This document shows, one piece after another, positions 39,698 to 54,358 of a stretch of 64,000 nucleotides of DNA (position 1 is the stretch's first letter; each line of letters opens with the position of its first letter). A program made the position numbers and the translations under genes. The stretch lies in assembly GCF_028532725.1 (NCBI RefSeq), contig NZ_JAQKGU010000009.1, positions 1 to 64,000 of the forward strand, given 5' to 3'. The notes beneath the pieces are model-generated. The model saw nothing but the letters and a program-made list of their open reading frames with translations. It had not been told where the DNA came from and did no database searches. The DNA comes from Desulfovibrio sp. Fe33 (GTDB lineage Bacteria; Desulfobacterota; Desulfovibrionia; Desulfovibrionales; Desulfovibrionaceae).

Positions 39698-40306
39698 ATG
39701 ACCGGCAAGAAAGTGCTTTCCGTGGCCGAGATCGCCCGCGAACTCGACCTGCCCGAATCCACGGTGCATTACTGGAAGAACAGGTTCGCCCAGCACCTGC
39801 CCAGTGTGGGGCGCGGCCGCCAGAAGCGTTTCCGGCCCGAGGCCGTGGATGTCTTCGCCGCCATCTCCCGACTGCTCAAGGAAGGGCACACCGCCCGCGA
39901 TGTGATGGACCAACTTTCCCGGGACTACCCGTTGCAGGCGGACGCCGTGCCCGCGCCGACGGATGGCGGGCAGCCTCCTCTCCAGGCTCCGGGGGCCATG
40001 GAGCAGGTCATGGGCATGGCCTCGGCCATCGGGCTTGAGATCGCCCGGTCCGTGGGCGAGGGCATCCGCTCCGCGCTGGAATCCTCAGGCGGGGCCGCTC
40101 CCGATGTTTCCGACGTGCGCCGGGGGCTTGAGGAGGCCGCTTCGCGCATCACCGTGACCATGGAGGAGACCGAGTCCCTGCGGGCCGAAAACCGGGCGCT
40201 CCGGGAAAAGCTCGCGGTCATGGAGGCGGAGATGGTCCGTTTGCGCAAAGACCGGCGTGAAATGGAAAAATACCTGCTTGACAAGATAAAATCCGTATCT
40301 ACTTAG
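39698..40306 (+). CDS. MerR-family transcriptional regulator
   Basis: 202 aa. N-terminal winged helix-turn-helix of the MerR class (VLSVAEIARELDLPESTVHYWKNRF, residues ~6-30, with the wing RGRQKRFRPEAVDVF), a proline-rich linker, and a C-terminal coiled coil (TESLRAENRALREKLAVMEAEM). There is no metal-binding cysteine pair, so the effector is not a MerR-type metal. AAGGGGGC precedes the ATG. Its target is unknown; htpG lies directly downstream on the same strand. Confidence 0.85.
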   Translation: MTGKKVLSVAEIARELDLPESTVHYWKNRFAQHLPSVGRGRQKRFRPEAVDVFAAISRLLKEGHTARDVMDQLSRDYPLQADAVPAPTDGGQPPLQAPGAMEQVMGMASAIGLEIARSVGEGIRSALESSGGAAPDVSDVRRGLEEAASRITVTMEETESLRAENRALREKLAVMEAEMVRLRKDRREMEKYLLDKIKSVST

Positions 40307-40355
40307 TCCCTGTTCCCGGGAGGCCATTCCCGAACACACTCTCTCAGAAAAAAGT

Positions 40356-40389
40356 CCCGCCGGGTGCGTTGGTCGATGCACCCGGCGGG
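40356..40389. other. GC-rich hairpin in the htpG leader
   Basis: CCCGCCGGGTGC pairs perfectly with GCACCCGGCGGG around a 10-nt loop, 33 nt before the htpG start. No T run follows on the plus strand; an A run precedes it. It could end the MerR transcript or structure the htpG leader. Confidence 0.6.
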
Positions 40390-40422
40390 CGCGCATTACA
40401 TTCCATCCGGAGGTATTTTTTC

Positions 40423-42312
40423 ATGGGCACGAAAACCACCCACAAATTCAAGGCTGAAATCAGCCAACTCCTCGATATTCTTGTGCACTCGCTGTACACA
40501 AACAAGGAAATCTTCCTTCGGGAGTTGATCTCCAACGCGTCCGACGCCCTGGAAAAGGTCCGTTTCAGGACCCAGGCCGAGGGCAAGGCCGACGAACTCG
40601 CTCCCGAGATTCGCATCTCCTGCGACGCGGACGCCAAGACGCTGACCGTGAGCGACACGGGCATCGGCATGACCCGCGACGAACTGATGCAGAACATCGG
40701 CACCATCGCGCATTCGGGCACGGCAGAGCTGGCCCGGCTGGCCGAAGAGGGCAAGGAATCGCTCGATTCGCTCATCGGCCGGTTCGGCGTGGGCTTTTAT
40801 TCCGTGTACATGGTCGCCGACGAAGTGACCGTGACCACGAAAGCTTTCGCCCCCGAGGCCAAGGTCGTGTCCTGGACCTCCGACGGCCGCACCGACTACA
40901 AGTTGCAGGATCTGGACGAGGACCGGCCCCACGGCACCGAGATCACCCTTCGCCTGAAGGACGACGAAGCCTCGCGGTTTACCAACGAGGCCCATCTCAA
41001 GCAGATCGTCAAGAAGCACTCCAACTTCATCAATTTCCCCATCTACGTGGGCGACGAGCGGGTCAACACGATCCAGGCCCTGTGGCGCGAGCCCAAGTTC
41101 CAGATCAAGCCGGAGCAGTACGCGGAGTTCTACAAGTTCCTAACCTTCGATTCCGAGGACCCCTTCGACACCCTGCATACTTCGGTGGACGCGCCGGTGC
41201 AGTTCAACGCCCTCATGTTCATCCCCAAGGACGGCGGTGATCCGTTCGGACTGGGCCGCGAGAACCGGGGCCTGGACCTGTACGTGCGCCGGGTGCTCAT
41301 CGAGAAGCAGAACAAGGACCTGCTCCCCGAGTATCTGGGCTTCGTCAAGGGCGTCGTGGACACCGAGGACCTGCCGCTGAACATCTCGCGCGAGACCCTG
41401 CAGGACAACCTGCTCATGCGCAAGATCAGCTCCACACTGGTAAAGCAGGTGCTCGATCACCTGACCAAGATGGCCAAGGACGACGCCGACCGCTACGCCG
41501 AGTTCTGGCGCGCCCACGGAGAGCTGTTCAAGGCGGGCTACATGGACTTCCTGAACAAGGACAAGTTCGCCGGACTGGTTCGTTTCAACTCCTCGGCGCT
41601 GGACGACGACAAGGCGCTGACCTCGCTGGCCGATTACATTTCCCGGGCCAAGGAGGAGCAGAAGGAAATCTACTACGCCTACGGCCCGAGCCGCCAGGCC
41701 CTGAGCCTTTCCCCGCATCTCGAGGTGTTCCGGCGCAAGCATCTGGAGGTTATGTACCTCTATGAGCCCATCGACGAGTTCGTTATGGACGCCTTGCGCG
41801 AGTACGAGGGGTACTCCCTGGTCTCGGCCGAGCACGCCGACATGGCCAAGCTCGACAAGTTCGAGTCGGTGGAGAAGGAGGATAAGCCCGAGCCGCTGTC
41901 CGACGAGCAGAAGAGCGAGCTGGACAAGCTGCTCGCCCGCATGAAGGATGCGCTCGGCGACGCCGTGACCGAGGTCAAGGCGTCCACGAGGCTGTCTGAA
42001 TCCCCGGTCTGCCTGGCCAATCCGGACGGCAACGTGACTTCGTCCATGGACAAGATCATGCGGGTCATGAGCAAGGACACCTCCATCCCCAAGAAGATTC
42101 TGGAGGTCAACCCGGATCACCCCCTGGTGCGCAACATGCTTGCCATCATGGAGCGGGACGAGAACGACCCGTTCATCGAGCAGGCCGCCAACCAGCTCTT
42201 CGAATCGGCCCTGCTCCTCGAAGGCTACCTGACCGACCCCCACGCCCTGGTGGGTCGGGTCCAGGATTTGTTGACCAAGTCGAGCGGCTGGTATGTCGCC
42301 ACCGGCAAATAA
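40423..42312 (+). CDS. htpG: Molecular chaperone HtpG (bacterial Hsp90)
   Basis: 629 aa cytoplasmic ATP-dependent chaperone. The N-terminal GHKL ATPase shows LYTNKEIFLRELISNASDAL, DTGIGMTRDEL and FGVGFYSVYMVAD; the middle domain contains LPLNISRETLQDN, the conserved Hsp90 arginine region. The C-terminal dimerisation domain is present and there is no eukaryotic MEEVD tail. Start at ATG 40423 follows CCGGAGG. No CIRCE-type inverted repeat was found upstream, only a GC-rich hairpin. Confidence 0.97.
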   Translation: MGTKTTHKFKAEISQLLDILVHSLYTNKEIFLRELISNASDALEKVRFRTQAEGKADELAPEIRISCDADAKTLTVSDTGIGMTRDELMQNIGTIAHSGTAELARLAEEGKESLDSLIGRFGVGFYSVYMVADEVTVTTKAFAPEAKVVSWTSDGRTDYKLQDLDEDRPHGTEITLRLKDDEASRFTNEAHLKQIVKKHSNFINFPIYVGDERVNTIQALWREPKFQIKPEQYAEFYKFLTFDSEDPFDTLHTSVDAPVQFNALMFIPKDGGDPFGLGRENRGLDLYVRRVLIEKQNKDLLPEYLGFVKGVVDTEDLPLNISRETLQDNLLMRKISSTLVKQVLDHLTKMAKDDADRYAEFWRAHGELFKAGYMDFLNKDKFAGLVRFNSSALDDDKALTSLADYISRAKEEQKEIYYAYGPSRQALSLSPHLEVFRRKHLEVMYLYEPIDEFVMDALREYEGYSLVSAEHADMAKLDKFESVEKEDKPEPLSDEQKSELDKLLARMKDALGDAVTEVKASTRLSESPVCLANPDGNVTSSMDKIMRVMSKDTSIPKKILEVNPDHPLVRNMLAIMERDENDPFIEQAANQLFESALLLEGYLTDPHALVGRVQDLLTKSSGWYVATGK

Positions 42313-42337
42313 TATCGGCGGGGCAACTGCATAACGA

Positions 42338-42369
42338 AACGGCCCCGGGCGCGCCCGGGGCCGTTTTTT
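42338..42369 (+). terminator. Intrinsic terminator after htpG
   Basis: ACGGCCCCGGGC pairs with GCCCGGGGCCGT around a CG turn, followed by TTTTTT. Confidence 0.93.
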
Positions 42370-42558
42370 GCGTCTGCGGCGGAAGAAAACCGGGGCCGCG
42401 CAGATTATAACGGCGCGCAGCCTCCGGGAGTGCTAGGTTTGCGGCAATAGTCAGTTCCATACCCTGACCTCGTCCGTCCCCCCGGGGCGGGCGCGAACCT
42501 CCTTACGGGGAGCGGCCGGTTCTATCGACGCCGGACCGGCCGTTCCCGCTCCGAAAGT

Positions 42559-43893
42559 CTAGTAGCCCATTCCCAGAAGCTGGCGGCAGAGTTCCGTGGC
42601 GTAATGGTCGGTCATGCCGGAGACGTAGTCCACGATGGCCATCATGATGCGGTATTGGCAGCGCTCGTCGTCCTTGGGGATGGCGTCGACGATCTCGTCG
42701 CCGAGGATGGTCTTGATCTTCTTGTTGGCGGGCGAGAGCTTCGGATCGCAGAACCCGCCCACGTCGACCATGGCCTGGTCGAGGAGCCTGCCCAGGGCGT
42801 TCCGGGCCCCCAGTTCGAGGATGGCCTTGCGGCGCGAGAAGAATATCTTGCCCGAGATGTTGTCGTAAACGTCGTGGATATGGCGGCAGATGCCGTTTTT
42901 CGACTCCTCCATCAAACTGGAGTTCTTGTCGAAGGCGCCGGTCATGATGTCGTCGTAGTGCGCCTGGAAGATGGCGGCGGCTTCATTGGTCGCGGCGGAA
43001 ATGAGCTTGGCCCGGAGCAGGCTGTTGCGCTGCCGGAAATGAGACTCCCGCACCCAGGCGTATCGCTCTCCCGGGCCCGCTTCCAGGCCCAGGTGTTCCG
43101 CGAAGCGTTTGAACATGAACCATTCGTCCAGGATGCCCAGTTCCGTGGCGTCCTCGATGTCGATGATGCGGTAGCAGATGTCGTCCGCGGCCTCGGTCAG
43201 GTAGGCCAGGGGCGGCCTGGACCACCTGTTGCCCAAAGGGATCAGCCCGAGGGCGGCGGCCACCGTTCCCATGGCCTCGGCCTCGGTCTGGAAGTAGCTG
43301 AATTTGTCCTTTTCGGCGGCCAGGGACGACCAGGGATATTTGAGCAGGGCGCCCAGGACCGCATGGGTGGGGCTCATGCCGGTCTGGTGGAAGCCGGTGG
43401 ACAGAAGGACGCGCACCGCCATGGCGTTGCCGTCGAACCGGGTGAAGTCCGAGAGGCACTCCTCGGGGAGGTTCCCGAAATCCGCTTTTCTGGCCTTGAA
43501 CCAGTCTTTGATGGCCTCCTCGCCGCTGTGGCCGAAGGGCGGGTTGCCGATGTCGTGGGCCAGGCAGGCGGCCTGCACGGCCTCGCCCACGTCGCGGGGC
43601 TCCAGCCTGCCGGGCAGCTCGCCGCGCTCCTCGAGGAACGCGCCCGCCAGTTCGCCCAGGGTCTTGCCCACGGAAGCCACTTCCAGGCTGTGGGTCAGCC
43701 GGGAGTGGATGTGGTCGTTCTCGTTCAGGGGGTGGACCTGGGTCTTGCGGGCCAGCCGACGGAAGTGGTCGCTGAAGAGGATGCGGTCGACGTCGCGTTG
43801 AAAGGGGCTGCGGATATCCTTGCTCTCGCTTGTATAACCGTAGCGAGTGGTGTCGAGCAGCTTGTTCCAGTCCATTCTGGTTTCGGAGCCCAT
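42559..43893 (-). CDS. dgt: Deoxyguanosinetriphosphate triphosphohydrolase-like protein
   Basis: 444 aa HD-superfamily enzyme that removes triphosphate from dNTPs. The metal ligands are visible: H68 in SRLTHSLEV, H113-D114 in LAHDIGNPPFGHSGEEA, and DDICYRIIDIEDA further on. MDWNKLLDTTRYG is a typical Dgt N-terminus. The ATG at 43893 follows CCGGAGG. dNTP specificity varies among family members, and some relatives limit phage by lowering dNTP pools. No operon partner. Confidence 0.9.
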   Translation of the reverse strand: MGSETRMDWNKLLDTTRYGYTSESKDIRSPFQRDVDRILFSDHFRRLARKTQVHPLNENDHIHSRLTHSLEVASVGKTLGELAGAFLEERGELPGRLEPRDVGEAVQAACLAHDIGNPPFGHSGEEAIKDWFKARKADFGNLPEECLSDFTRFDGNAMAVRVLLSTGFHQTGMSPTHAVLGALLKYPWSSLAAEKDKFSYFQTEAEAMGTVAAALGLIPLGNRWSRPPLAYLTEAADDICYRIIDIEDATELGILDEWFMFKRFAEHLGLEAGPGERYAWVRESHFRQRNSLLRAKLISAATNEAAAIFQAHYDDIMTGAFDKNSSLMEESKNGICRHIHDVYDNISGKIFFSRRKAILELGARNALGRLLDQAMVDVGGFCDPKLSPANKKIKTILGDEIVDAIPKDDERCQYRIMMAIVDYVSGMTDHYATELCRQLLGMGY

Positions 43894-43984
43894 GGTCGTT
43901 CCTCCGGGAGGCTTGAGGCGTTTTTGACGAACGTCCCCTACTCACCAGATTATCACGGGGCGGTCAACCTCCCGGAGTCACGGC

Positions 43985-44032
43985 AAAAATGCGCGGGGCC
44001 GGGGCAGGGCGCATCCCTGCCCCGGCCCCGCG
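43985..44032 (-). terminator. Strong terminator downstream of the FlgM-like gene
   Basis: GCGGGGCCGGGGCAGGG pairs perfectly with CCCTGCCCCGGCCCCGC; in the minus direction ATTTTTGCCG follows. Confidence 0.85.
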
Positions 44033-44049
44033 AGCCGGTCGATTGAAGC

Positions 44050-44274
44050 CTAGAGCGTCGGGTCCATCGCCGAGGTCAGCAGCCTGGCGATGTCCATGAC
44101 GTCGGGCTTGTATCGGCCTGCATTCACTTCGGCCTTGAGCCGGGCGATCTTGCTGGCGCGCTCTTCGGCGGTGTCCCGGTGGCGGCCGGAGCACACTTCG
44201 CCGAAGGCGTCGAGCATGTGCTCGGTCTCGATGTCGTCCGCGGTCCGTCCGCGGCTGTCTTCATAACCCTTCAT
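44050..44274 (-). CDS. flgM: FlgM-like anti-sigma-28 factor
   Basis: 74 aa. The C-terminal half, ERASKIARLKAEVNAGRYKPD followed by VMDIARLLTSAM, matches the conserved sigma-binding region of FlgM (a helix, then GxYxxD, then a final helix). The N-terminal part is polar and probably disordered, as in FlgM, and shorter than usual. FlgM binds FliA and is secreted through the flagellum; flgE is about 11 kb away. It could instead be another small protein with a FlgM-like tail. Confidence 0.6.
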   Translation of the reverse strand: MKGYEDSRGRTADDIETEHMLDAFGEVCSGRHRDTAEERASKIARLKAEVNAGRYKPDVMDIARLLTSAMDPTL

Positions 44275-44859
44275 TAACCCCTCCCTGGGTTATTGAAGTC
44301 TGCGGGAAGGCGGTTTGAAGCCTTCCCCGATGTCTCCCTCATCCGTCGCGCCGGCCCCGGCCGCGTCCCTGCGACCGACGTTTGCGCAACCGTGCGGATG
44401 CGTTCTCCGCGCGTCCGGACCTGACCGGGCGCACGAAGTTGCTACTCTTATCGGACGCGGGGCGCGAATGCTTAGGGTGGACGGACGGATTTTCGATGTT
44501 GGCGTTGCTCCGCTGTTTCAGTCCATCGCGCTTGACGGGGAGAGAACGCCGGAGCCGCGTATCCGCAAGGACTGCGGCCATTCCCGGCGGACGCGCGATC
44601 ATGCCGGGCGCGTTTCGAGGGGGGGCGTGAAACGGTTGCGCCTTTTCCCGCGCCGCCCGATCGTCACCCGTTCGCCATGACGCCCCAGGGAGCGTCGGGC
44701 ATGTTGCTTCTAGACTTTCTCGTGAAAACTGGTCATGATTCTGATAACCGGATGCACATATAACGGAGGCTCAAAATGAAATTGATTCGCTGATTCCCGG
44801 CCATGGGTGCCAAGGCGTGAAAAGCCCAGGAATCAACTTCAACCACCGGACGGGGGATT
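44275..44859. other. 585-bp intergenic region without a convincing gene
   Basis: Frames in this stretch lack ribosome-binding sites and resemble no family. It contains a hairpin GGAAGGC/GCCTTCC at 44304-44325. Near 44765-44793 an AACGGAGGC is followed by a five-codon frame (MKLIR), and TTGATTC/GAATCAA lies inverted around the next 50 nt. This may be a leader of the PIN-PhoH gene, but no more can be supported. Confidence 0.6.
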
Positions 44860-46050
44860 ATGGCCCAGAAGCACTTTGTCCTCGATACCAACGTCCTCAT
44901 TGAAAACCCCAAAAGCATCATCGCCCTGAGAAACGGGGCGGAAAACCAGATATACATCCCCTACACCGTCCTTGATGAACTGGACGGACTGAAAAAAGAC
45001 CCGCGCATCGGCCACATCGTCTCCCAGGCGGTGCGGGCCATTCTCGAAGACGAAGCCGTCAACATCTTCCCGCCCGACTTTGCGGCCACCCTGACCGACA
45101 ACCTGATGGACGACCGAATCCTGAAGGAAATTCTTCATGTCGGGCCTGAAAACGCCACGCTCATCACCAACGACCGCATCCTCCAGATCAAGGCCAAGTG
45201 CTACGGCATTCCCTCCGAGGAGTACCGCGATTCCGACCCGTTCCGGTCCGAATCCCAGCGGTACACCGGGTTTGTGGAGGAAGGGGATGAGCCTGTGCGC
45301 AACTGCTTCCGCTGGGAGAACGGCACGCCGATCTTCTATGGCCCGGAAGGTCCCAGGGAGATCAGCTATACCCATGAGATATGGGGTGTGAAGCCGCGCA
45401 GCGTGTATCAGAACCTGGCTCTCGAACTGATGCTTTGCGACGGGATAGACCTGGTCTCCATTCAGTCCGAGGCGGGCTACGGCAAGACGTTCCTCTCCCT
45501 GGCCGCCGCCCTGTATCTGATGCTCGAACGCAAGGACAATCCCTACCGCAAGATATACCTGGTCAAGCCGGTGGTGGAGATCGGGGCCAAGATGGGCTAC
45601 CTGCCCGGCGACATCGAGGAGAAGATGCTGCCGTACATCAAGTACATCCAGGATCTGCTCATCAAGCTGCACGATATCCGGCCCTGCAACCGTATCTGGC
45701 TCGACCCGCAGGGAGACTCGTTCAAGTTCAACCCCAAGAAGCTGGAGGTTCAGCCCGTGGCCTTCCTGCGCGGCATGAACATCGAGAACGCGGTGGTCAT
45801 CGTGGACGAGATGCAGAACCTGTCGCGCGGCGAAACCCGCGCCCTGCTGACGCGCATGGGCGAAGGGGTGAAGTGCATCTGTCTGGGCGACACGCGCCAG
45901 GTGGACAACCCGTATCTCAACGAAGCCAACAACGGCCTCAACTGGACAGTCCGCAAGCTCAAGGGGTACAGAAACTATGCGCACATGGTTCTCAAGGGCG
46001 ACCGATCCAGGGGCCCCATCACGGACATTGTGCTGAAATCGAAACTGTAA
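44860..46050 (+). CDS. PIN-domain PhoH-type ATPase (PhoH2)
   Basis: 396 aa with two domains. The N-terminal PIN domain (~1-130) has acidic residues in VLDTNVLIEN (D9), LDELDGL (E40) and ITNDR (D105), as in VapC-like ribonucleases. The C-terminal PhoH ATPase has Walker A IQSEAGYGKTF (~203-210, with Ser where Gly or Ala is usual), KPVVEIGAKMGYLPG, and Walker B VVIVDEMQN. PhoH2 proteins couple RNA unwinding to RNA cleavage. No antitoxin gene precedes it. GGGGGA lies before the ATG. Confidence 0.9.
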   Translation: MAQKHFVLDTNVLIENPKSIIALRNGAENQIYIPYTVLDELDGLKKDPRIGHIVSQAVRAILEDEAVNIFPPDFAATLTDNLMDDRILKEILHVGPENATLITNDRILQIKAKCYGIPSEEYRDSDPFRSESQRYTGFVEEGDEPVRNCFRWENGTPIFYGPEGPREISYTHEIWGVKPRSVYQNLALELMLCDGIDLVSIQSEAGYGKTFLSLAAALYLMLERKDNPYRKIYLVKPVVEIGAKMGYLPGDIEEKMLPYIKYIQDLLIKLHDIRPCNRIWLDPQGDSFKFNPKKLEVQPVAFLRGMNIENAVVIVDEMQNLSRGETRALLTRMGEGVKCICLGDTRQVDNPYLNEANNGLNWTVRKLKGYRNYAHMVLKGDRSRGPITDIVLKSKL

Positions 46051-46099
46051 CCGACCGTCCGGAGCGGCTTTCCGCCCGGCGGGCTTGACGGGAGCTTTC

Positions 46100-47233
46100 A
46101 TGCCCATGAGGCGGACAGCCCTCCCGCTGCTTGCGGGAATCCTTCTTCATTGCATTGCGCTGTCCGGTCTTTCGCCGTTTACGGCCGAGGCCCGGGCGGG
46201 GGATGTGGAGATGCTTTCGCCCATGCGGAGCGCCGCCTTCCCGTCGCTGGAATCGGCCATCCGCATCAAGGGACCGCTTCGTTTCTGCGGCGAATTCGTG
46301 CCCCTGCATCTGCCGGAGGTGCGCGAGCGGCTGGAGAAGGAATTGCTGCTCATGCTCTGGGACCGCGCCCAGGTCATTCTCTGGCTCAAACGCACTGGCC
46401 GCTATTTCCCGCATATCGAGACCGTGCTCCGGGCCGGGAACATGCCCGACGACCTCAAGTTCATCGCGGTCATCGAGTCCGCGCTGAAGCCGGAGGCGGG
46501 GTCCAACCGGGGGGCGCGCGGGGTGTGGCAGTTCATCCCCTCCACGGCGGCCAACTACGGCCTGACCGTAGACCGGTTCATCGACGAGCGGCGCAACTTC
46601 TATTTCGCCACCCGGGCGGCTTCGGCCTATCTCAAGGATCTGCACGACAGGTTCGGCTCCTGGACCCTGGCCTGCGCGGCCTACAACATGGGCGAGCAGG
46701 GGCTGGAACGGCAGATCGAGAAGCAGGAGGTCGACGATTACTACCATCTCCACCTGCCCGCAGAGACCGAGCGCTACATTCTCCGGGCCATCGCGGCCAA
46801 GCTCATCCTGACCGATCCGTCCCGCTACGGCTTCGACTTGTATCCTGAGGACTACTACAGTCCCGGCAAATTCGACCGCGTCAAGCTGCGGGCCAAGTAT
46901 CCCACGCCCCTGACCCTGGTGGCCAAGGCGGCGGGGACTTACTACAAGCTCATCCGCGACCTCAATCCGCAGTTCCTGGGCGACGTCGTACCGCCCGGGC
47001 AGCATGTCCTTTTCCTGCCCGAGGGATCGGCCGGGGAATTCGCCGAGCGGTATCACCCGCTCATGGCCAAGTACCGCGAGACCCTCAAACCCGAGACCTA
47101 CGTGGTCAAGCAGGGCGACTCCCTGACCGGCATCGCCCAGGAGCACGACATGAGCCTCGCCCAGTTGTGCAAGCTCAACAAGCTCGGCAGGCGGGCGACC
47201 ATCCACCCCGGACAGGAACTGCTCGTCAGATAG
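46100..47233 (+). CDS. Membrane-bound lytic murein transglycosylase with LysM domain (MltD-like)
   Basis: 377 aa periplasmic peptidoglycan lyase. Signal peptide at the N-terminus (ALPLLAGILLHCIALSGL), then a family 1 SLT domain with the catalytic glutamate E126 in AVIESALKPEA, followed by GARGVWQFIPSTA and ACAAYNMGEQGL. A LysM domain for peptidoglycan binding ends the protein (YVVKQGDSLTGIAQEHDMSLAQLCKLN, ~333-377). Start at ATG 46100, with GGAG 5 nt upstream; a TTG 15 nt earlier is less likely. Convergent with the putative selenoprotein gene. Confidence 0.9.
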   Translation: MPMRRTALPLLAGILLHCIALSGLSPFTAEARAGDVEMLSPMRSAAFPSLESAIRIKGPLRFCGEFVPLHLPEVRERLEKELLLMLWDRAQVILWLKRTGRYFPHIETVLRAGNMPDDLKFIAVIESALKPEAGSNRGARGVWQFIPSTAANYGLTVDRFIDERRNFYFATRAASAYLKDLHDRFGSWTLACAAYNMGEQGLERQIEKQEVDDYYHLHLPAETERYILRAIAAKLILTDPSRYGFDLYPEDYYSPGKFDRVKLRAKYPTPLTLVAKAAGTYYKLIRDLNPQFLGDVVPPGQHVLFLPEGSAGEFAERYHPLMAKYRETLKPETYVVKQGDSLTGIAQEHDMSLAQLCKLNKLGRRATIHPGQELLVR

Positions 47234-47247
47234 GCCTGCATTCCTCC

Positions 47248-47595
47248 TCAGTCGTGGGCGGGCCGGGAAACCCTGTAGTTGCGCGCCAAGTATTCGATGA
47301 TCGCCCTGTGGTCGTCGATGAAGACGTGTCCGCCCGCCGTTCTCATGGGCAGGCCGTCCGCCCTGGACGGGTCGCCGACAACAAGGCAGGGACAGCCCTG
47401 GTGCTCCTCGCCCAGCAGGGCGATGATGGCGTGTCTCGGGCGTTCAAAGGGAATGGTGCGGATGTCGAGCCTTTCCCGGACCTCAGGATAATAGTGGAGC
47501 AACCCTTCCAGGATCGCGCATTCCGGTCAGTAAAGCGGGCCTCGCAGGCCGCTGGTGAAGTCGCCCACCAGGGTGAACAGGATATCTTTGGACAT
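47248..47595 (-). CDS. Putative selenoprotein, DUF3088/thioredoxin-like (in-frame TGA read as Sec)
   Basis: 115 residues if the in-frame TGA at 47527-47529 is read as selenocysteine (U23). The frame runs MSKDILFTLVGDFTSG..LYUPECAILEGLLHYYPEV..IPFERPRHAIIALLGEEHQGCPCLVVGD. As I recall the DUF3088 family, relatives have CPxC followed by a glutamate-rich helix, FP, RPR and LLGE at these positions, so TGA replaces the first Cys of CPxC. AAGGAG lies 6 nt before the ATG at 47595. Sequence on both sides of the TGA stays in one frame with family-like residues, and a SECIS-like hairpin follows. A redox role is inferred; the family is uncharacterised. A standard gene caller would report only the part after the TGA. 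Confidence 0.78.
47496..47524 (-). promoter_or_regulatory. Candidate bacterial SECIS element
   Basis: On the minus strand GCGATCC and GGGTTGC (47517-47511 and 47505-47499) form a 7-bp stem with two G-U pairs around the loop TGGAA; GGA and TCC outside it can extend the stem past a small bulge. The loop starts 16 nt after the TGA and has G in its second position, as required by the published general bacterial SECIS model as I recall it. Confidence 0.6.
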
Positions 47596-47745
47596 GGTTT
47601 CTCCTTGTTTGGGGCCCTTTTCAGGCCCGTCCTCCGTATCGCACCCTGCCCCGCAGCGGGCAAGAAAAACGTGTTTCGGCCCGCTGGCGCGGCCGCCCGT
47701 GTCGTCGTTTTTTGGGGAACTAACTCTTTAATTTTGCTGAAGGGG

Positions 47746-47849
47746 AAATCAGGGGTTGTAGGCCGCTTCGCGGCAATAGTCGGGTGATTTCGCCTCCGGC
47801 GGGCAAGGGCTCGCACCCTTGCATCCCCTGTATGCGCCTTCGGCGCGGG
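47746..47849 (-). repeat. Four-hairpin dispersed repeat, copy 5 (inverted)
   Basis: Reverse complement carries GCGCCGAAGGCGC, GCAAGGG...CCCTTGC, CGCCGGAGGCG and GCCGCGAAGCGGC in order. Lies between ald and the selenoprotein gene, about 58 bp from the ald terminator. Confidence 0.9.
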
Positions 47850-47906
47850 CTTTTTTCGCTCCGTGGCGTTTTGTTGAGGCAGCGGGGATAAAGGTATCGG
47901 TCTAGA

Positions 47907-47943
47907 AAAAAATGCCCCGGTCATCTGACCGGGGCATTTTTTA
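47907..47943 (-). terminator. Intrinsic terminator of ald
   Basis: AATGCCCCGGTCA pairs perfectly with TGACCGGGGCATT around a 2-nt turn, flanked by A and T runs so it could work both ways. Confidence 0.93.
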
Positions 47944-47960
47944 TTGCGTGATCGCAGCCG

Positions 47961-49073
47961 CTACATGCGGGCGAGGGCCTCTTCGGGGGTGATGGACTCG
48001 ATGTCCAGGGCGGCTCCGACCGCGGGGCAGGTCAGCTTGCCGTCCCAGGTGTTCAGGCCGAGGGCCAGACCGGCGTCGTCCTTGAGGGCGTCCACGCCCT
48101 TGGCGGCCAGGCGCAGGGCGTAGGGGGCGGTCTGGTTGACGAGAGCGAAGGTGGAGGTGCGGGGCACCGCGCCGGGCATGTTGGCCACGCCGTAGTGGAC
48201 CACGCCGTCGATGACGTAGGTCGGGTTGTCGTGGGTGGTGGCGTGGGTGGTCTCGATGCAGCCGCCCTGGTCCACGGCCACGTCGACGATGACCGCGCCT
48301 TCCTTCATCAGCGGCAGCATGTCGCGGGTGATGAGGTTGGGGGTCTTCGCGCCGGGCAGCAGGACCGCGCCGATGACGAGATCGGCGCGCTGGACCATCT
48401 GGCGGATGTTGGGCTCGGTGGACATCATGGTGGTGATGCGGCCCTGGAAGACGTCGTCCAGGTACTGGAGACGCTGGTGGGAAAGGTCGAGGATGGTCAC
48501 GCGCGCGCCCATGCCCATGGCGATGCGGGCGGCGTTGGTGCCGACCACGCCGCCGCCCAGGACGAGCACTTCGGCGGGGTACACGCCGGGCACGCCGCCA
48601 AGCAGGATGCCTCGGCCGCCCTGGGTCTTCTCGAGATAATGGGCGCCGACCTGGGTGGCCATGCGGCCCGCGACTTCGGACATGGGGGTGAGCAGGGGCA
48701 GGGTGCCGTCGGCGGACTTGACGGTCTCGTAGGCGATGGCGGTGGTTCCGGCGTCGAGCAGGGCCTTGGTCAGCTCTTCCGCGGCGGCCAGATGCAGGTA
48801 GGTGAAAAGAATCATGTCATTGCGCAGGTACTTGAACTCGCTTTGAAGCGGTTCCTTGACCTTGATGACCATCTTGGCGTTCCAGGCTTCCTCGGCGGAA
48901 ACCATTTTTGCGCCTGCGGCAACGTACTCCTCGTCGGACAGCCCGCTTCCCAGACCCGCGCCGGTCTCGACGAGCACTTCGTTGCCCTGGCGGACCAGGG
49001 ATTCAACCGCGCCGGGGGTCATGGCGACGCGATTTTCCAGCGTTTTGATTTCCTTGGGGATACCGATAATCAT
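47961..49073 (-). CDS. ald: Alanine dehydrogenase
   Basis: 370 aa cytoplasmic NAD-dependent enzyme interconverting L-alanine and pyruvate plus ammonia. It begins [28 protein letters not shown] holds the substrate histidine region, the Rossmann loop is [20 protein letters not shown], and [20 protein letters not shown] is a family hallmark. Full length. The Lrp-type regulator lies 45 nt upstream on the same strand, which suggests alanine-responsive control. Pyruvate from ald links to malic enzyme and energy metabolism in sulfate reducers. Confidence 0.96.
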
Positions 49074-49118
49074 CTGATGCTCCTTTGCAAACTCCCCGCC
49101 CTCTCCGGCGGATAAACG

Positions 49119-49601
49119 TTATTGAGTGAAGGTATCGACCACGGCGTCGGGCAACAGCAGCCATTTGCGCCGGGATTTCATGACCACGAAGGATTCGGAG
49201 GCGTTGATGCCGCCCACGCGCGACAGGTCCTCGTTCAGGAACGCATAGAGGTCGTCCATGCCTTCCCGGCAGATGATCTCGACGATGATGTCGTATCGCC
49301 CGGTCACCACTGCGGCCCAGTTCACGCGGGGCAGCGCGCCGATCTGGTCCAGCTTTTCGCCGAGCTGCTCGTGGCTCATCAGGCTGATGCCGACCAGGGC
49401 CACGGTCAGCCCCTTGACGCGCATGGGGTTCACGAGTCCGGCCACCTTGAGCGCGCCCATCCGCATCAGGTTTTTCAGCCTGGATCGGACCGTGGGCGCC
49501 GTCACGCCCGTGGCGGCTCCGATTTTGCCGGGCGAGAGCTGTCCGTCGCGGGTCAGTTCGGCCACCAGCCGCTTGTCTTGGGAATCCAGTGAATTTTTCA
49601 T
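49119..49601 (-). CDS. Lrp/AsnC-family transcriptional regulator
   Basis: 160 aa. N-terminal winged helix-turn-helix (LDSQDKRLVAELTRDGQLSPGKIGAATGVTAPTVRSRLKNL, residues 5-44) and a C-terminal RAM ligand-binding domain (~65-150; NWAAVVTGRYDIIVEII). Members bind amino acids and control their catabolism; adjacency to ald makes alanine a likely effector (inference). Co-transcribed with ald. An inverted repeat 66 bp upstream could be its operator. Confidence 0.9.
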   Translation of the reverse strand: MKNSLDSQDKRLVAELTRDGQLSPGKIGAATGVTAPTVRSRLKNLMRMGALKVAGLVNPMRVKGLTVALVGISLMSHEQLGEKLDQIGALPRVNWAAVVTGRYDIIVEIICREGMDDLYAFLNEDLSRVGGINASESFVVMKSRRKWLLLPDAVVDTFTQ

Positions 49602-49666
49602 TTTTGTCAGTCCATGTTTTCGTTTTGGAAAGCGTGACAGTATTGATTTACCTAAAAGTAAAAAAA

Positions 49667-49689
49667 GTTGTCAATTGTTTTTTGACAAC
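49667..49689. promoter_or_regulatory. Perfect inverted repeat upstream of the Lrp gene
   Basis: GTTGTCAA and TTGACAAC flank a 7-nt spacer in an AT-rich stretch. The inner TTGACA could be a -35 box in the minus direction, with TAAATC about 18 bp beyond it. The element lies between the divergent regulator and binding-protein genes and suits an autoregulatory operator. Confidence 0.5.
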
Positions 49690-49830
49690 GGAATATAACC
49701 CTGTCTTTGACCGGTTCGCCGGGCGGCGCAAGGGGAAAGACGCCGCCCGGACCGGACCGCGAGATGGATAACACTGCGCCGCATTCTCGGCACGCGTTGC
49801 TTTTTGTTGGAATGCATTTTAGATTGCGCA

Positions 49831-50580
49831 ATGGTCCATGGTTCAGCACATTTTCACCTGTTTCCGGTCCTGCTGCTCGCCGTGCTGTCGCTGCCCGTCC
49901 TCTCGTACCAGGCGCGGGCCGAAGGCGAGACGTTGCGCATCGCCACCATCGAGCTTGGTACGGGCGGGCGGTTTGAAGACGGGCGTCCGACCGGGTTCTG
50001 CTACGATCTCGGGAACGCCCTTGCGCGCGAGGCCGGGTTCGAGCCGGTCAATCGGCTCGTGCCCCTGGCGCGGGGGGTGGAGGAAGTCGTCCTGGGCCTG
50101 GCCGACATGATAATCGTCGCGCCGGACGAGCGGATCGACGAGGCGGCCGAGAACATCGGCCTGGTGGAGACCCTGACCATAGTGGCCTGGGGGCGGGTGG
50201 AGACCCCCTTGCGCAGCAAGCGGGACCTGGCAGGGAAAACCGTGGCCTTGGTCCGGGGGTCGCGGCTTGACCGCGGGCGGGGCGGAGAACTGCGGATCGT
50301 CCGTTTCCCCTGCCGGAATCACGAACTGGGCTTCAAAATGCTCATGGCCGGGCGAGTGGATGCCGTGATCGGTCCCATCGGGGGGCTGGCCTTCGCCGCC
50401 GAGAAGGTCGGCGTGCGAAGCCGCTTTCTGGGCGAACCGCTTGTCATCGGCGAAGCTCCCGTGCACGTCTATGTGTCCAAGCGCCTGCCGCGCGACGCGC
50501 GGAATCGACTGAGGCGCGTCCTGAAGCGATTCCACGGAGACGGAACCGTGACCCGGCTGCGCAATCGGTATCCCTTATAA
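49831..50580 (+). CDS. Periplasmic solute-binding protein (SBP_bac_3-like)
   Basis: About 249 aa with a signal peptide (FPVLLLAVLSLPVLSYQARA) and an amino-acid-binding-type fold: LRIATIELGTGGRFEDGRPTGFCYDLGNALAREAGF, then LAGKTVALVRGS and a C-terminal RRVLKRFHGDGTVTRLRNRY. No transporter genes are nearby; the next gene is a membrane sensor kinase 95 nt downstream, so it may act as a ligand receptor. Start is uncertain (ATG 49831 or TTG 49804; neither has a clear ribosome-binding site). Confidence 0.8.
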   Translation: MVHGSAHFHLFPVLLLAVLSLPVLSYQARAEGETLRIATIELGTGGRFEDGRPTGFCYDLGNALAREAGFEPVNRLVPLARGVEEVVLGLADMIIVAPDERIDEAAENIGLVETLTIVAWGRVETPLRSKRDLAGKTVALVRGSRLDRGRGGELRIVRFPCRNHELGFKMLMAGRVDAVIGPIGGLAFAAEKVGVRSRFLGEPLVIGEAPVHVYVSKRLPRDARNRLRRVLKRFHGDGTVTRLRNRYPL

Positions 50581-50675
50581 CTGAGATGACAGTGTGCGGG
50601 GAGTCGTGTAGAGGCTTTCAGGAGGATGTGAGGTCCTGGAGTCGTTCCCCCAAGTCCACGTTTCCCGGATAACAG

Positions 50676-52607
50676 ATGCTAGCAGACAAGCCCAAGAGAA
50701 AACGGCCTCTTCTGACCAGCAGGTCCATCTCTCGGGACCTGACTCTCAGTCTGGTGGTCATCGTCATGCTCATCGCCACGGCTCTTGGCGGGTTCATCTA
50801 TTGGCAGCAGTCCGAAGAGATGTGGGCCACCGCCAAGCGCAAGGGTGAGGACACCATCTCCTCGGTGGCCGAAATCCTGGCCGTGCCCATCTGGAACCTC
50901 GACTACGACAATGCCCGGCTCATCGGCTCGGTCTACACCCATGACGACATGGTCCAGGGCATCCGCATCTACGGTTCGCGTAACGAAGTGGTTTTCGCCC
51001 ACGAGAAATTTTCCGGCGAGCCGGCGGACTTCAACGCGGTTCGTCCCATCGTCTTCGAGGGCAGAACCATCGGCCGGGCCGAAATAGATTTCACTCTGGA
51101 GCGCGAGAAAAAACGGCTCGACGAGCAGATGTTTGTTTCCATCATCATCATCGTCGTCTCCATCTCCGTCATTCTGGCCATCACCGGCCTGCTCCTGCGC
51201 GTTTTCCTGAACAAGCCGCTCAAGGTCCTCCAATCCGGCATCGCCCGCGTGGCGAAGGGTGACTTTTCCTATGATTTCGGCGAGGTCTACCATGCCGAGC
51301 TGTTGGAAATCGCCAAGCGGTTCCGGCGCATGTCCAGCGAGATCGAAGGCCGCGAAAACAAGCTCCAGACCATGAACAAGACCCTCCAGGAAGCGGAGGA
51401 AAAATACAGGTCCATCTTCGAGAACGCCATCGAAGGTATTTTCCAGGCCACGCCGGACGGCGTGCTCCGCCGGGCCAACCCGGCCATGGCCCGCATCTTC
51501 GGCTACGATTCCCTGGACGAGTTCCTGTCCAACGTCCGCTCCCTGAGTTCCCGGATCATGGTCAATCCCGACCACATGCAGGGGTTCTTCGACAGGGTGC
51601 GCGACCAGGGCGAGGTCAAACGGTTCGAGGCCGAGTACTACCGCCGGGACGGCAATACCATCTGGGGTTCCCTCAACGCCCGGGCCATCTACAACGAGAA
51701 GGGAAACTACGTGTTCGTGGACGGCATCCTCGAAGACATCACGGACAGGAAAAAAGCCGAGCAGGACCTGGCCGACCTCAACCGCCACCTGGAGCAGCTC
51801 GTCCGCGAACGCACCGAGGATCTGGTCAACAAGGCCCGTGAACTCGAAGAGGCCAACCAGCGGCTTCGCGAGCTGGACGAAATGAAGTCCACCTTCCTCT
51901 CTTCGGTCTCCCACGAGCTGCGCACGCCCCTGACGTCCATCCTCGGTTTCGCCAAGCTCCTGAACAAGGAATTCACCCGCAATTTCCTGCCCCTGGTAGC
52001 CCCGGAGAGCCTTCTGGCCCGCAAGGGCAAGCGCATCCGCGAGAACCTGGCCATCATCAGCCACGAAGGGGAGCGCCTGACGCGGCTCATCAACGACGTT
52101 CTCGACCTGAACAAGATCGAGTCCGGCTCCATGGGGTGGCGCGACGAGGAACTGGACATGAACGAGGTCATCGAGGTGGCCGCCAGTTCAGTTTCCGGCA
52201 TGTTCGCACAGACCTCCCCGGAGCTGCGCACCGAAATTGCGCCCGGCCTGCCGCGCATCTTCGCCGATCGCGACCGTATGCAGCAGGTCTTCGTCAACCT
52301 GCTCAACAACGCCTCGAAGTTCACCGAAAAAGGTTTCGTCACCCTGCGCGCATTCCCGCGTTTCGGACAGTTGCGCGTGGAGGTAGTGGACACCGGCACC
52401 GGCATCCATCCCGAAGACCAGTCCCAGATATTCGAGAAGTTCCACCAGACCCACACCGACGACACCATGGTCAACAAGCCCAAGGGCACAGGTCTCGGCC
52501 TGACCATCTGCCGCGAAATCATCGAGCACTACGGCGGCCGCATCTGGGTCGAATCCGAAGTAGGCGTAGGCTCCACCTTCATCTTCACCCTGCCCGCCAT
52601 GCAGTAG
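50676..52607 (+). CDS. Membrane HAMP-PAS histidine kinase
   Basis: 643 aa. Two membrane helices (~22-43 and ~152-177) flank a periplasmic sensor of about 105 residues (VPIWNLDYDNARLIG is typical of that family). HAMP (~178-230), PAS (~240-362), a coiled coil, HisKA with H413 in SVSHELRTPLTS, and HATPase_c with NLLNNASKFTEKG, DTGTGI, FEKFHQ and GTGLGL follow. No receiver domain. The preceding periplasmic protein could feed its sensor. Cognate response regulator is not in the window. Confidence 0.9.
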   Translation: MLADKPKRKRPLLTSRSISRDLTLSLVVIVMLIATALGGFIYWQQSEEMWATAKRKGEDTISSVAEILAVPIWNLDYDNARLIGSVYTHDDMVQGIRIYGSRNEVVFAHEKFSGEPADFNAVRPIVFEGRTIGRAEIDFTLEREKKRLDEQMFVSIIIIVVSISVILAITGLLLRVFLNKPLKVLQSGIARVAKGDFSYDFGEVYHAELLEIAKRFRRMSSEIEGRENKLQTMNKTLQEAEEKYRSIFENAIEGIFQATPDGVLRRANPAMARIFGYDSLDEFLSNVRSLSSRIMVNPDHMQGFFDRVRDQGEVKRFEAEYYRRDGNTIWGSLNARAIYNEKGNYVFVDGILEDITDRKKAEQDLADLNRHLEQLVRERTEDLVNKARELEEANQRLRELDEMKSTFLSSVSHELRTPLTSILGFAKLLNKEFTRNFLPLVAPESLLARKGKRIRENLAIISHEGERLTRLINDVLDLNKIESGSMGWRDEELDMNEVIEVAASSVSGMFAQTSPELRTEIAPGLPRIFADRDRMQQVFVNLLNNASKFTEKGFVTLRAFPRFGQLRVEVVDTGTGIHPEDQSQIFEKFHQTHTDDTMVNKPKGTGLGLTICREIIEHYGGRIWVESEVGVGSTFIFTLPAMQ

Positions 52608-52691
52608 GCGGGGCGGCCGCGCCGGTTGGGCGTCTCCGACTGTTCAAGAATCTTTTGGAAAGGGAACTGCCTCGTAACTGTCGGAAGAGGG

Positions 52692-52796
52692 AAATCAGGT
52701 GTTGAAGGCCGCTTCGCGGCAATGGTCGGGAGATTTCGCCTCCGGCGGGCAAGGGTTCGCACCCTTGCATCCCCTGTATGCGCCTTCGGCGCGGGC
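52692..52796 (-). repeat. Four-hairpin dispersed repeat, copy 6 (inverted)
   Basis: Same element on the minus strand; here the second hairpin reads AAGGGT GCGA ACCCTT, so a T-A pair replaces the unpaired or wobble position of other copies. Lies between the convergent kinase and RNase E/G genes, 35 bp from the terminator. Confidence 0.9.
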
Positions 52797-52830
52797 TTCT
52801 TTCGTTTTGCGGTGGGAGAGTTTCTCGAAA

Positions 52831-52866
52831 AAAAGCCCCCGTCCTGATGATCCGGGACGGGGGCTT
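52831..52866. terminator. Intrinsic terminator of the RNase E/G gene
   Basis: AAGCCCCCGTCC pairs with GGGACGGGGGCTT across a 9-nt loop; A run on the left and TTTTATT on the right, so usable in both directions. Confidence 0.9.
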
Positions 52867-52891
52867 TTATTCTTCGTATTCGGGAGCGCGG

Positions 52892-54358
52892 CTACTCGTC
52901 GTACTCGTATTCGATGTCGATGTGCACGGACTTGCCGTAGCGCGTCTCAAGGTCGGCCAGGATGCCGCGCTTCTTGTTGAGCAGGTAGATGGCCAGTTCC
53001 TCTTCGCAGTTGTATTCGACGGGTTCTGTGCCGGGCTTGCGCAGGTCGCGGTGGATGTCCTTGAGGGACTGGAGGGCCTGCCATTCCATGTTGCGCCGGA
53101 TTCCAGTGCCCTTGCAGCAGGGGCACGGCTCGGTGGAGATGGCGATGGCGGAGGAGCCGAGCCGCTGGCGGACCAGCTCCATGAGGCCGAAGGAGGAAAT
53201 GCGCGAAACATCGGTCCGGGCGCGGTCGTTCTTCATCTCGGCGCGCATGACCTTTTCCACCTCGCGGCAGTCCTTGGGGTTCTTCATCTCGATGAAGTCG
53301 ATGACCACCTGGCCGCCGATGTCGCGCAGCCTGAGCTGGCGGGCGATCTCGCGGGCGGCTTCGACGTTGGTCTTCAGGGCCATCTTCTGGAAATTCTTTT
53401 CGCCGCCGATCTTGCCGGAGTTGATGTCCACGGCGGTCAGGGCCTCGGTGGCGTCGAAGACGAGCCGTCCGCCCGAGGGCATGGACGCTTCGCGGGAGTA
53501 GATTTCCTCCACCTGCTTGACCAGGTTGAACCGCTCAAGCAGGGAGAGCTCGTTGTCCTCGTGCAGCCGGACCAGGTTGTTCTTGCGCGGGAAGGCCAGC
53601 TTCACGAACTGGTGGACCTGCTCGTAGGTCTCCTTGTCGTCCACCCAGATTTCGGTGACGTCGGAGGTCAGGTAGTCGCGCACGGCGCGCGCGGCCAGCC
53701 CGAGTTCCTCGTAGACCACTGCGGGAGCCTTGACCTTCTGGGCGTTGGAGCGGATGTCGGTCCACAGCCTGTTCAGGTACTTGAAGTCGCGTTCCAGGGC
53801 GGCCTTGGACTGGCCGACGGCAGCGGTGCGGGCGATGAGCCCCACGCCTTCGGTGGTTTCGAATCCTTCCAGCGCGGCTTTGAGCCGGGCGCGTTCCTTT
53901 TCGTCCTCGATCTTGCGCGAAACCCCGATCTGGCTGCGGCCCACGGTGTAGACGAAGCTGCGGCCGGGCAGGGAGAGGTAGGAGGTCAGGAAAGCGCCTT
54001 TTTTGCCGGTGGGTTCCTTGACCACCTGGACCAGGACTTCCTGGCCGGGCTTGAGCACCTTCTGCATGAGCGGGAAGCGCTGGCCCTTCTTGGTGGGCAC
54101 TTCGGTGTTGTAGTATTCGGGATGGACTTCGTCGATCTGGAGGAACCCGTTCCGTTCGGCTCCGTAGTTGATGAACGCGGCCTGAAGACCGTTGTCGATG
54201 TTGTGGATGTAGCCTTTGTAGATGTTGCCCTTGGTCTTGGCCTGATGGACCATCTCAACGTAATATTCGTTGACCTTGCCTTCTTCGGCGATGACGACTT
54301 CTACCTGTTCTCCCGGCAGCACGGAGATGAACATCTTCTGCCGTTTCTTTTTGGTCAT
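52892..54358 (-). CDS. rng: Ribonuclease E/G family protein
   Basis: 488 aa, the length of RNase G or the catalytic half of RNase E. S1-like RNA-binding domain (~40-120; NIYKGYIHNIDNGLQAAFINYG), then the DNase-I-like core with DATEALTAVDINSGK and GGQVVIDFIEMKN holding the catalytic aspartates. The zinc-link cysteines appear as CPCCKGTG. It processes rRNA and mRNA; no long C-terminal scaffold is present. Upstream radical SAM gene is 48 nt away on the same strand. Confidence 0.93.
   Translation of the reverse strand: MTKKKRQKMFISVLPGEQVEVVIAEEGKVNEYYVEMVHQAKTKGNIYKGYIHNIDNGLQAAFINYGAERNGFLQIDEVHPEYYNTEVPTKKGQRFPLMQKVLKPGQEVLVQVVKEPTGKKGAFLTSYLSLPGRSFVYTVGRSQIGVSRKIEDEKERARLKAALEGFETTEGVGLIARTAAVGQSKAALERDFKYLNRLWTDIRSNAQKVKAPAVVYEELGLAARAVRDYLTSDVTEIWVDDKETYEQVHQFVKLAFPRKNNLVRLHEDNELSLLERFNLVKQVEEIYSREASMPSGGRLVFDATEALTAVDINSGKIGGEKNFQKMALKTNVEAAREIARQLRLRDIGGQVVIDFIEMKNPKDCREVEKVMRAEMKNDRARTDVSRISSFGLMELVRQRLGSSAIAISTEPCPCCKGTGIRRNMEWQALQSLKDIHRDLRKPGTEPVEYNCEEELAIYLLNKKRGILADLETRYGKSVHIDIEYEYDE

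Follow-up and report, generated by a model that had tools for sequence, protein, structure and literature searches.

The window analysed here, a 64,000-nt stretch of Desulfovibrio sp. Fe33 (positions 1 to 64,000 of contig NZ_JAQKGU010000009.1), carries on its minus strand a gene of the DUF3088 family with a single internal stop, a TGA at codon 23, in the frame that leads from its ATG to its terminal TGA (Table 1). The gene encodes a small, probably redox-active protein of sulfate reducers that is as yet uncharacterised, and sequence comparison suggests that this TGA is very probably read as selenocysteine (Sec). A DUF3088-like minus-strand gene with an in-frame TGA had been proposed in the earlier note from the letters alone, and the assignment is borne out by a match of PF11287 (DUF3088) to residues 3–110 of the read-through product, with E of 6.3e-32 and 110.2 bits (cut-off 26.4). 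As this one match runs across the TGA, both flanks belong to one family profile. Besides PF11287, no Pfam family matches the read-through product at E ≤ 1, and no NCBIfam model does so at the same threshold; many named selenoprotein families possess NCBIfam models, by the accessions in the available part of PMC13188914.

Table 1. Features of the DUF3088 locus in the window.
Feature	Position	Strand	Details or basis
DUF3088 gene, 115 residues, putative Sec at residue 23 (U23), UPEC motif	47248..47595	minus	ATG 47595, terminal stop TGA 47250-47248
In-frame UGA, putative Sec23, on the invariant Cys column of the family	47527..47529	minus	frame reading and homologue alignment
Codon of Cys26, second active-site Cys of UPEC	47518..47520	minus	Cys in 95/103 listed homologues
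SECIS-like hairpin, 8 bp	47499..47517	minus	arms 47517-47510 and 47506-47499, loop GGA 47509-47507
Codons of Cys68-Pro69-Cys70	47386..47394	minus	homologue alignment
Shine-Dalgarno-like AAGGAG, 5 nt 5' of ATG 47595	47601..47606	minus	read from sequence
Alanine dehydrogenase gene ald, upstream neighbour	47961..49073	minus	Pfam
Lrp/AsnC-type regulator, upstream of ald	49119..49601	minus	Pfam

Out of 158 homologues found, 120 are listed, of which 103 reach the column aligned with the TGA and 17 begin after it. All 103 have Cys at this column, 90 of them with Pro directly after it, and 95 have the second Cys of the CPxC motif. The CPxC motif given in the earlier note was thus right, as was the placement of U at its first Cys. 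Further downstream, Pro69 is found in all 120 listed homologues, Cys68 in 64 and Cys70 in 15; from the structural model we infer that Pro69 would be the cis-Pro of a thioredoxin (Trx)-like fold.

The gene was identified by a read-through search in 11 out of 36 genomes of the genus, labelled here Pseudodesulfovibrio as judged from the names on proteins. Seven of these 11 have TGA at the codon 23 position (the window's own gene, L011, L012, L013, L014, L015, and L018), and the other four have a Cys codon at the same position (L010, L016, L017, and L019). Since TGA occupies the identical codon in seven genomes, a miscalled base, raised in the earlier note as a possible source of the TGA, is excluded. 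The six other UGA copies are 55–63% identical to the window's copy, and the Cys form reaches up to 70% identity to the window's protein within the genus. AAGGAG precedes the start in eight of the 11 loci, the exceptions being L015, L016, and L018, a decayed copy. Among 348 genomes of the order the family is present in these 11; in a phylum sample of 395 genomes, in the window's genome and in G599; and in the class of G599, in six of 257 genomes, G599 among them. Seven loci read outside the genus (six from the class of G599 and one from a Desulfobacteraceae metagenome-assembled genome) all have CPDC and none has TGA.

The hairpin behind the TGA resembles a bacterial selenocysteine insertion sequence (SECIS). 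It begins 9 nt past the UGA, with a UGA-to-loop spacing of 17 nt, and an identical layout (perfect 8-bp stem, loop and spacing) is observed in six of the seven UGA genes compared to none of the four Cys genes; when the threshold is lowered to 5 bp, a hairpin appears among the Cys genes in L019 only, at a different place. The exception among the UGA genes is L018, with two stem mismatches and a shifted start. A G in the small apical loop of the SECIS stem-loop is described in the available part of PMC1088965, and a stem-loop directly 3' of the UGA with such a G is present in the same six UGA genes. As a background, a perfect stem of at least 8 bp with a loop of 3–7 nt, G in one of its first two positions, and a distance of 14–24 nt from TGA follows 23 of the 1626 TGA triplets of the window.

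Covariation was assessed on six distinct UGA sequences, L013 having been dropped as its stem is the same as in L012. Paired stem cells constitute 95.8%, three of the eight pairs are altered on both sides in a compensatory manner, and sliding of the hairpin arms lowers the pairing to 35–52%. Shuffled data match the observed pairing in 6 of 500 cases and the number of changes on both sides in 19 of 500, but 361 of the 500 shuffles equal the observed count of further pair types. The Cys genes reach 62.5% pairing, which does not clearly exceed what shuffling gives (170 of 500). Separately, L018 (G018:C14:3688-4032) looks decayed: its first residues are frame-shifted, the CPC region reads CHC, and two of the eight SECIS pairs are broken.

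All four sel genes, listed in the earlier note among the checks, have been found in the genome: tRNA-Sec (selC) at 79.6 bits (cut-off 47), SelB at 389 bits, SelA at 610 bits, and SelD at 333 bits. Moreover, all 36 genomes of the genus, including those with the Cys form, have selA above the cut-off. One in-frame TGA is present in selD itself, and TGA also lies inside two full-length formate dehydrogenase alpha genes (fdhA) and one partial match of this type in the same genome. These TGA codons are followed by hairpins with loops GGC and GGG (8 bp) in the two fdhA, GGA (7 bp) in selD, and GTC (7 bp) in the partial fdhA-type match. The DUF3088 gene is like fdhA and selD in having an in-frame TGA and then a hairpin of 7–8 bp with a triloop starting with G; however, the proteins are unrelated, and the UGA-to-loop distance is 19–23 nt in fdhA and selD against 17 nt here.

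Selection was estimated from 36 pairwise comparisons of nine sequences, with Sec and Cys forms pooled and L018 and L019 dropped. For codons preceding the UGA, the nonsynonymous rate (dN) is below the synonymous one (dS) in all 16 pairs with finite dS above zero; saturation affects another 19, and the remaining pair, nearly identical, differs by one change with dS of 0. The same relation, dN < dS, holds on both flanks of the TGA wherever dS is finite and above zero; in raw counts, nonsynonymous codon changes exceed synonymous ones in several pairs. As dN is below dS before the UGA, the stretch 5' of it is most likely translated in the frame of the TGA.

Comparison of the 11 loci indicates that the Cys/Sec exchange occurred inside the genus. 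We constructed a small tree of 21 rows with the Sec/Cys column masked, which contained 10 of the 103 full listed homologues and none of the 17 truncated ones, and a large tree, in which 17 full and 15 truncated homologues were placed. The best small tree needs four Sec/Cys changes, two of which are forced by well-supported branches; support for most of its inner branches is weak. On this tree the approximately unbiased test rejects one common clade of the Sec forms (p-AU 0.0003).

The predicted fold of the protein (structure alignment A5, 72 rows) is of the thioredoxin/GST-N type, that is, similar to the N-terminal domain of glutathione transferases (GSTs), with Sec23 at the active-site position. 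The model has the order beta-alpha-beta-alpha-beta-beta-alpha, and its first long helix begins with the redox motif; the nearest structures are GSTs, dehydroascorbate reductase (DHAR), and CLIC1. The helical C-terminal domain of GSTs is absent, as the 115-residue protein stops after the Trx-like domain. The glutaredoxin and thioredoxin profiles, PF00462 and PF00085, give no match at E ≤ 1. Compared to the Cys-form DUF3088 proteins, the full-length family, the CPxC position and Pro69 are shared, while the window's gene has a putative Sec for the first Cys and the hairpin behind it. With the Sec-containing glutaredoxins and thioredoxins (UxxC; available part of PMC13188914) it shares the predicted Trx-like fold, an N-terminal UxxC and the existence of Cys homologues, but those belong to PF00462 and PF00085, and the DUF3088 product matches PF11287 only. 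Similarly, a GST-type fold and Sec would be common to it and the GST-like selenoprotein (PF13409 in PMC13188914, COG0625 in PMC1088965, both as available in part), but DUF3088 is a stand-alone domain with no PF13409 match at E ≤ 1.

We consider thiol/disulfide-type oxidoreductase chemistry of a single-domain UPxC protein likely. During translation, SelB with Sec-tRNA(Sec) would recognise the hairpin starting 9 nt past the UGA. In the resulting protein, the U-P-E-C active site would open the first long helix of the predicted domain, the most likely target of the Sec23 selenolate would be a disulfide, or else some other oxidised or electrophilic substrate, the Se–S intermediate would be resolved by Cys26, and a cellular thiol reductant would restore the enzyme.

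The earlier proposal of a likely selenoprotein is supported by the Cys column, the sel genes, the recurrent TGA, the covarying hairpin, and purifying selection. On these grounds, UGA codon 23 of the 115-residue DUF3088 protein is almost certainly read as Sec, and it is highly probable that the protein receiving Sec is of the redox type. What weighs against this is that the free energy of the hairpin by itself is ordinary (z 0.11). The TGA might alternatively be a true stop, with the functional product being a shorter protein translated from TTG 47502 (84 aa) or nearby, as in databases, where 17 of the 120 listed homologues, including the 88-aa protein of Pseudodesulfovibrio nedwellii, begin past the column. 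Such a product would lack the motif of the active site as well as the first strands in the model, and this explanation is extremely unlikely given that purifying selection acts in the frame of the TGA on the codons ahead of it where dS can be estimated, that the Shine-Dalgarno-like site precedes ATG 47595, that the hairpin behind the TGA is preserved by compensatory changes, and that the TGA falls on an invariant Cys. Decay of the gene, with the TGA being a nonsense mutation, would agree with the patchy presence in 11 of 36 genomes and with the decayed appearance of one of the seven UGA loci, L018, but the six other UGA copies are otherwise open, five besides the window's have diverged to 55–63% identity, and dN is below dS on either side of the TGA in the informative pairs. 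Moreover, since a common clade of the Sec forms is rejected, a nonsense mutation inherited from a single event would have had to revert to Cys repeatedly, and we find a pseudogene the least credible of the alternatives.

One more possibility is read-through of another kind, by near-cognate insertion of Trp or Cys or under a reassigned code, or else a selenium-sensitive switch with meaningful termination. TGA terminates none of the 10 genes nearest the DUF3088 gene (39698-54358), which speaks for this reading; this absence is probably due to chance, and TGA does work as a stop in nine of 44 window open reading frames picked by codon usage and in the DUF3088 gene itself. The hairpin specific to UGA genes, the sel machinery, and the Cys/Sec exchange at the motif Cys form the usual signature of Sec insertion, which makes these other routes and the switch very unlikely.

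On sequence evidence, DUF3088 would be a new selenoprotein family within a well-known kind, and would add one family to the prokaryotic selenoproteome. Sec usually takes the place of the catalytic nucleophile; hence the replacement hints at what this domain of unknown function may do. The supposition of the earlier note that DUF3088 is not among the described selenoprotein families holds within the literature searched, which did not extend to preprints: it contains no joint mention of "DUF3088" and "selenoprotein" and no mention of "PF11287", and "Pseudodesulfovibrio" together with "selenocysteine" yields only papers unrelated by title. In the parts available, PMC13188914, a 2026 review with a census of prokaryotic selenoprotein families, has no occurrence of "3088" or "11287", and PMC9312934 and deep-Sep (PMC12013277) do not mention Pseudodesulfovibrio. 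DUF3088 is named in PMC3091736, with zero occurrences of "selenocysteine" in the available text, and appears in a pathway-prediction table (electron transport chain, glutathione metabolism, and Fe-S-cluster biogenesis) of PMC12828279, the available portion of which never mentions selenium.

The genomic neighbourhood was compared across the loci of the genus other than L013, which is nearly identical to L012. Pfam assignments cover four proteins, namely the ald and AsnC products of the window, the L055 rhodanese-YceI protein, and the L057 radical SAM/SPASM protein; for the remaining neighbours the assignment comes from BLAST clusters or visual inspection. In one setting (the window's own locus, L010, L011, L012, L014, and L018) the Lrp/AsnC regulator and ald are followed by DUF3088, ald being a listed open reading frame in four genomes and recognised by its 3' end in two. 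Here a terminator-like hairpin seen by eye separates ald from DUF3088; in the window it lies at approximately 47937-47906 and was not listed by the hairpin scanner. Given this hairpin, ald and the DUF3088 gene are probably not co-transcribed. In the other setting (L015 with Sec, L016 and L017 with Cys) a radical SAM-type frame, of which only the first part was read in L015, starts no more than about 20 nt from DUF3088, and a rhodanese-YceI-type gene comes next; L019 has the latter gene only. The downstream arrangement of L015–L017 (L055–L057) resembles an operon and occurs with both Sec and Cys forms.

Sec and Cys forms are present in both settings. As Sec and Cys versions of the same small protein occur naturally within one genus, including a Cys version in the ald neighbourhood, the genus is a convenient system for the question of the advantage of Sec over Cys. 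A wider interpretation, unlikely in its entirety, would be that DUF3088 is an undescribed selenoprotein family with several Cys/Sec swaps in one genus and, in the part of the genus where it would share an operon with the radical SAM/SPASM enzyme and the rhodanese-YceI protein, serves that enzyme as a selenium-dependent electron or sulfur/selenium shuttle.

Two of the 17 late-starting listed homologues come from UGA genes whose models are truncated, namely P0002, which is the window's own, and P0016, the 88-aa "DUF3088 family protein" of P. nedwellii. The other 15 are candidate UGA genes only. P0016, P0022, and P0024, Pseudodesulfovibrio DUF3088 entries of 88–89 aa, start just past the Sec column, so that the active site seems to be missing from the models deposited for them, of which the DNA was inspected for the genome of P0016: with the active-site codon written as "stop", the database entries seen lack it. 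Three truncated metagenomic proteins (P0034, P0037, and P0054) form a supported group of their own in the large tree (99/95), its position outside the Pseudodesulfovibrio rows being weakly supported (81/22), and are possibly Sec forms of another genus. Finally, a HesB-like gene with an in-frame TGA (L073, G000:C2:57284-57490) is located near a second, uninterrupted HesB-like match. It is below the family cut-off and has no hairpin of the scored type; Sec-containing HesB is a known family.
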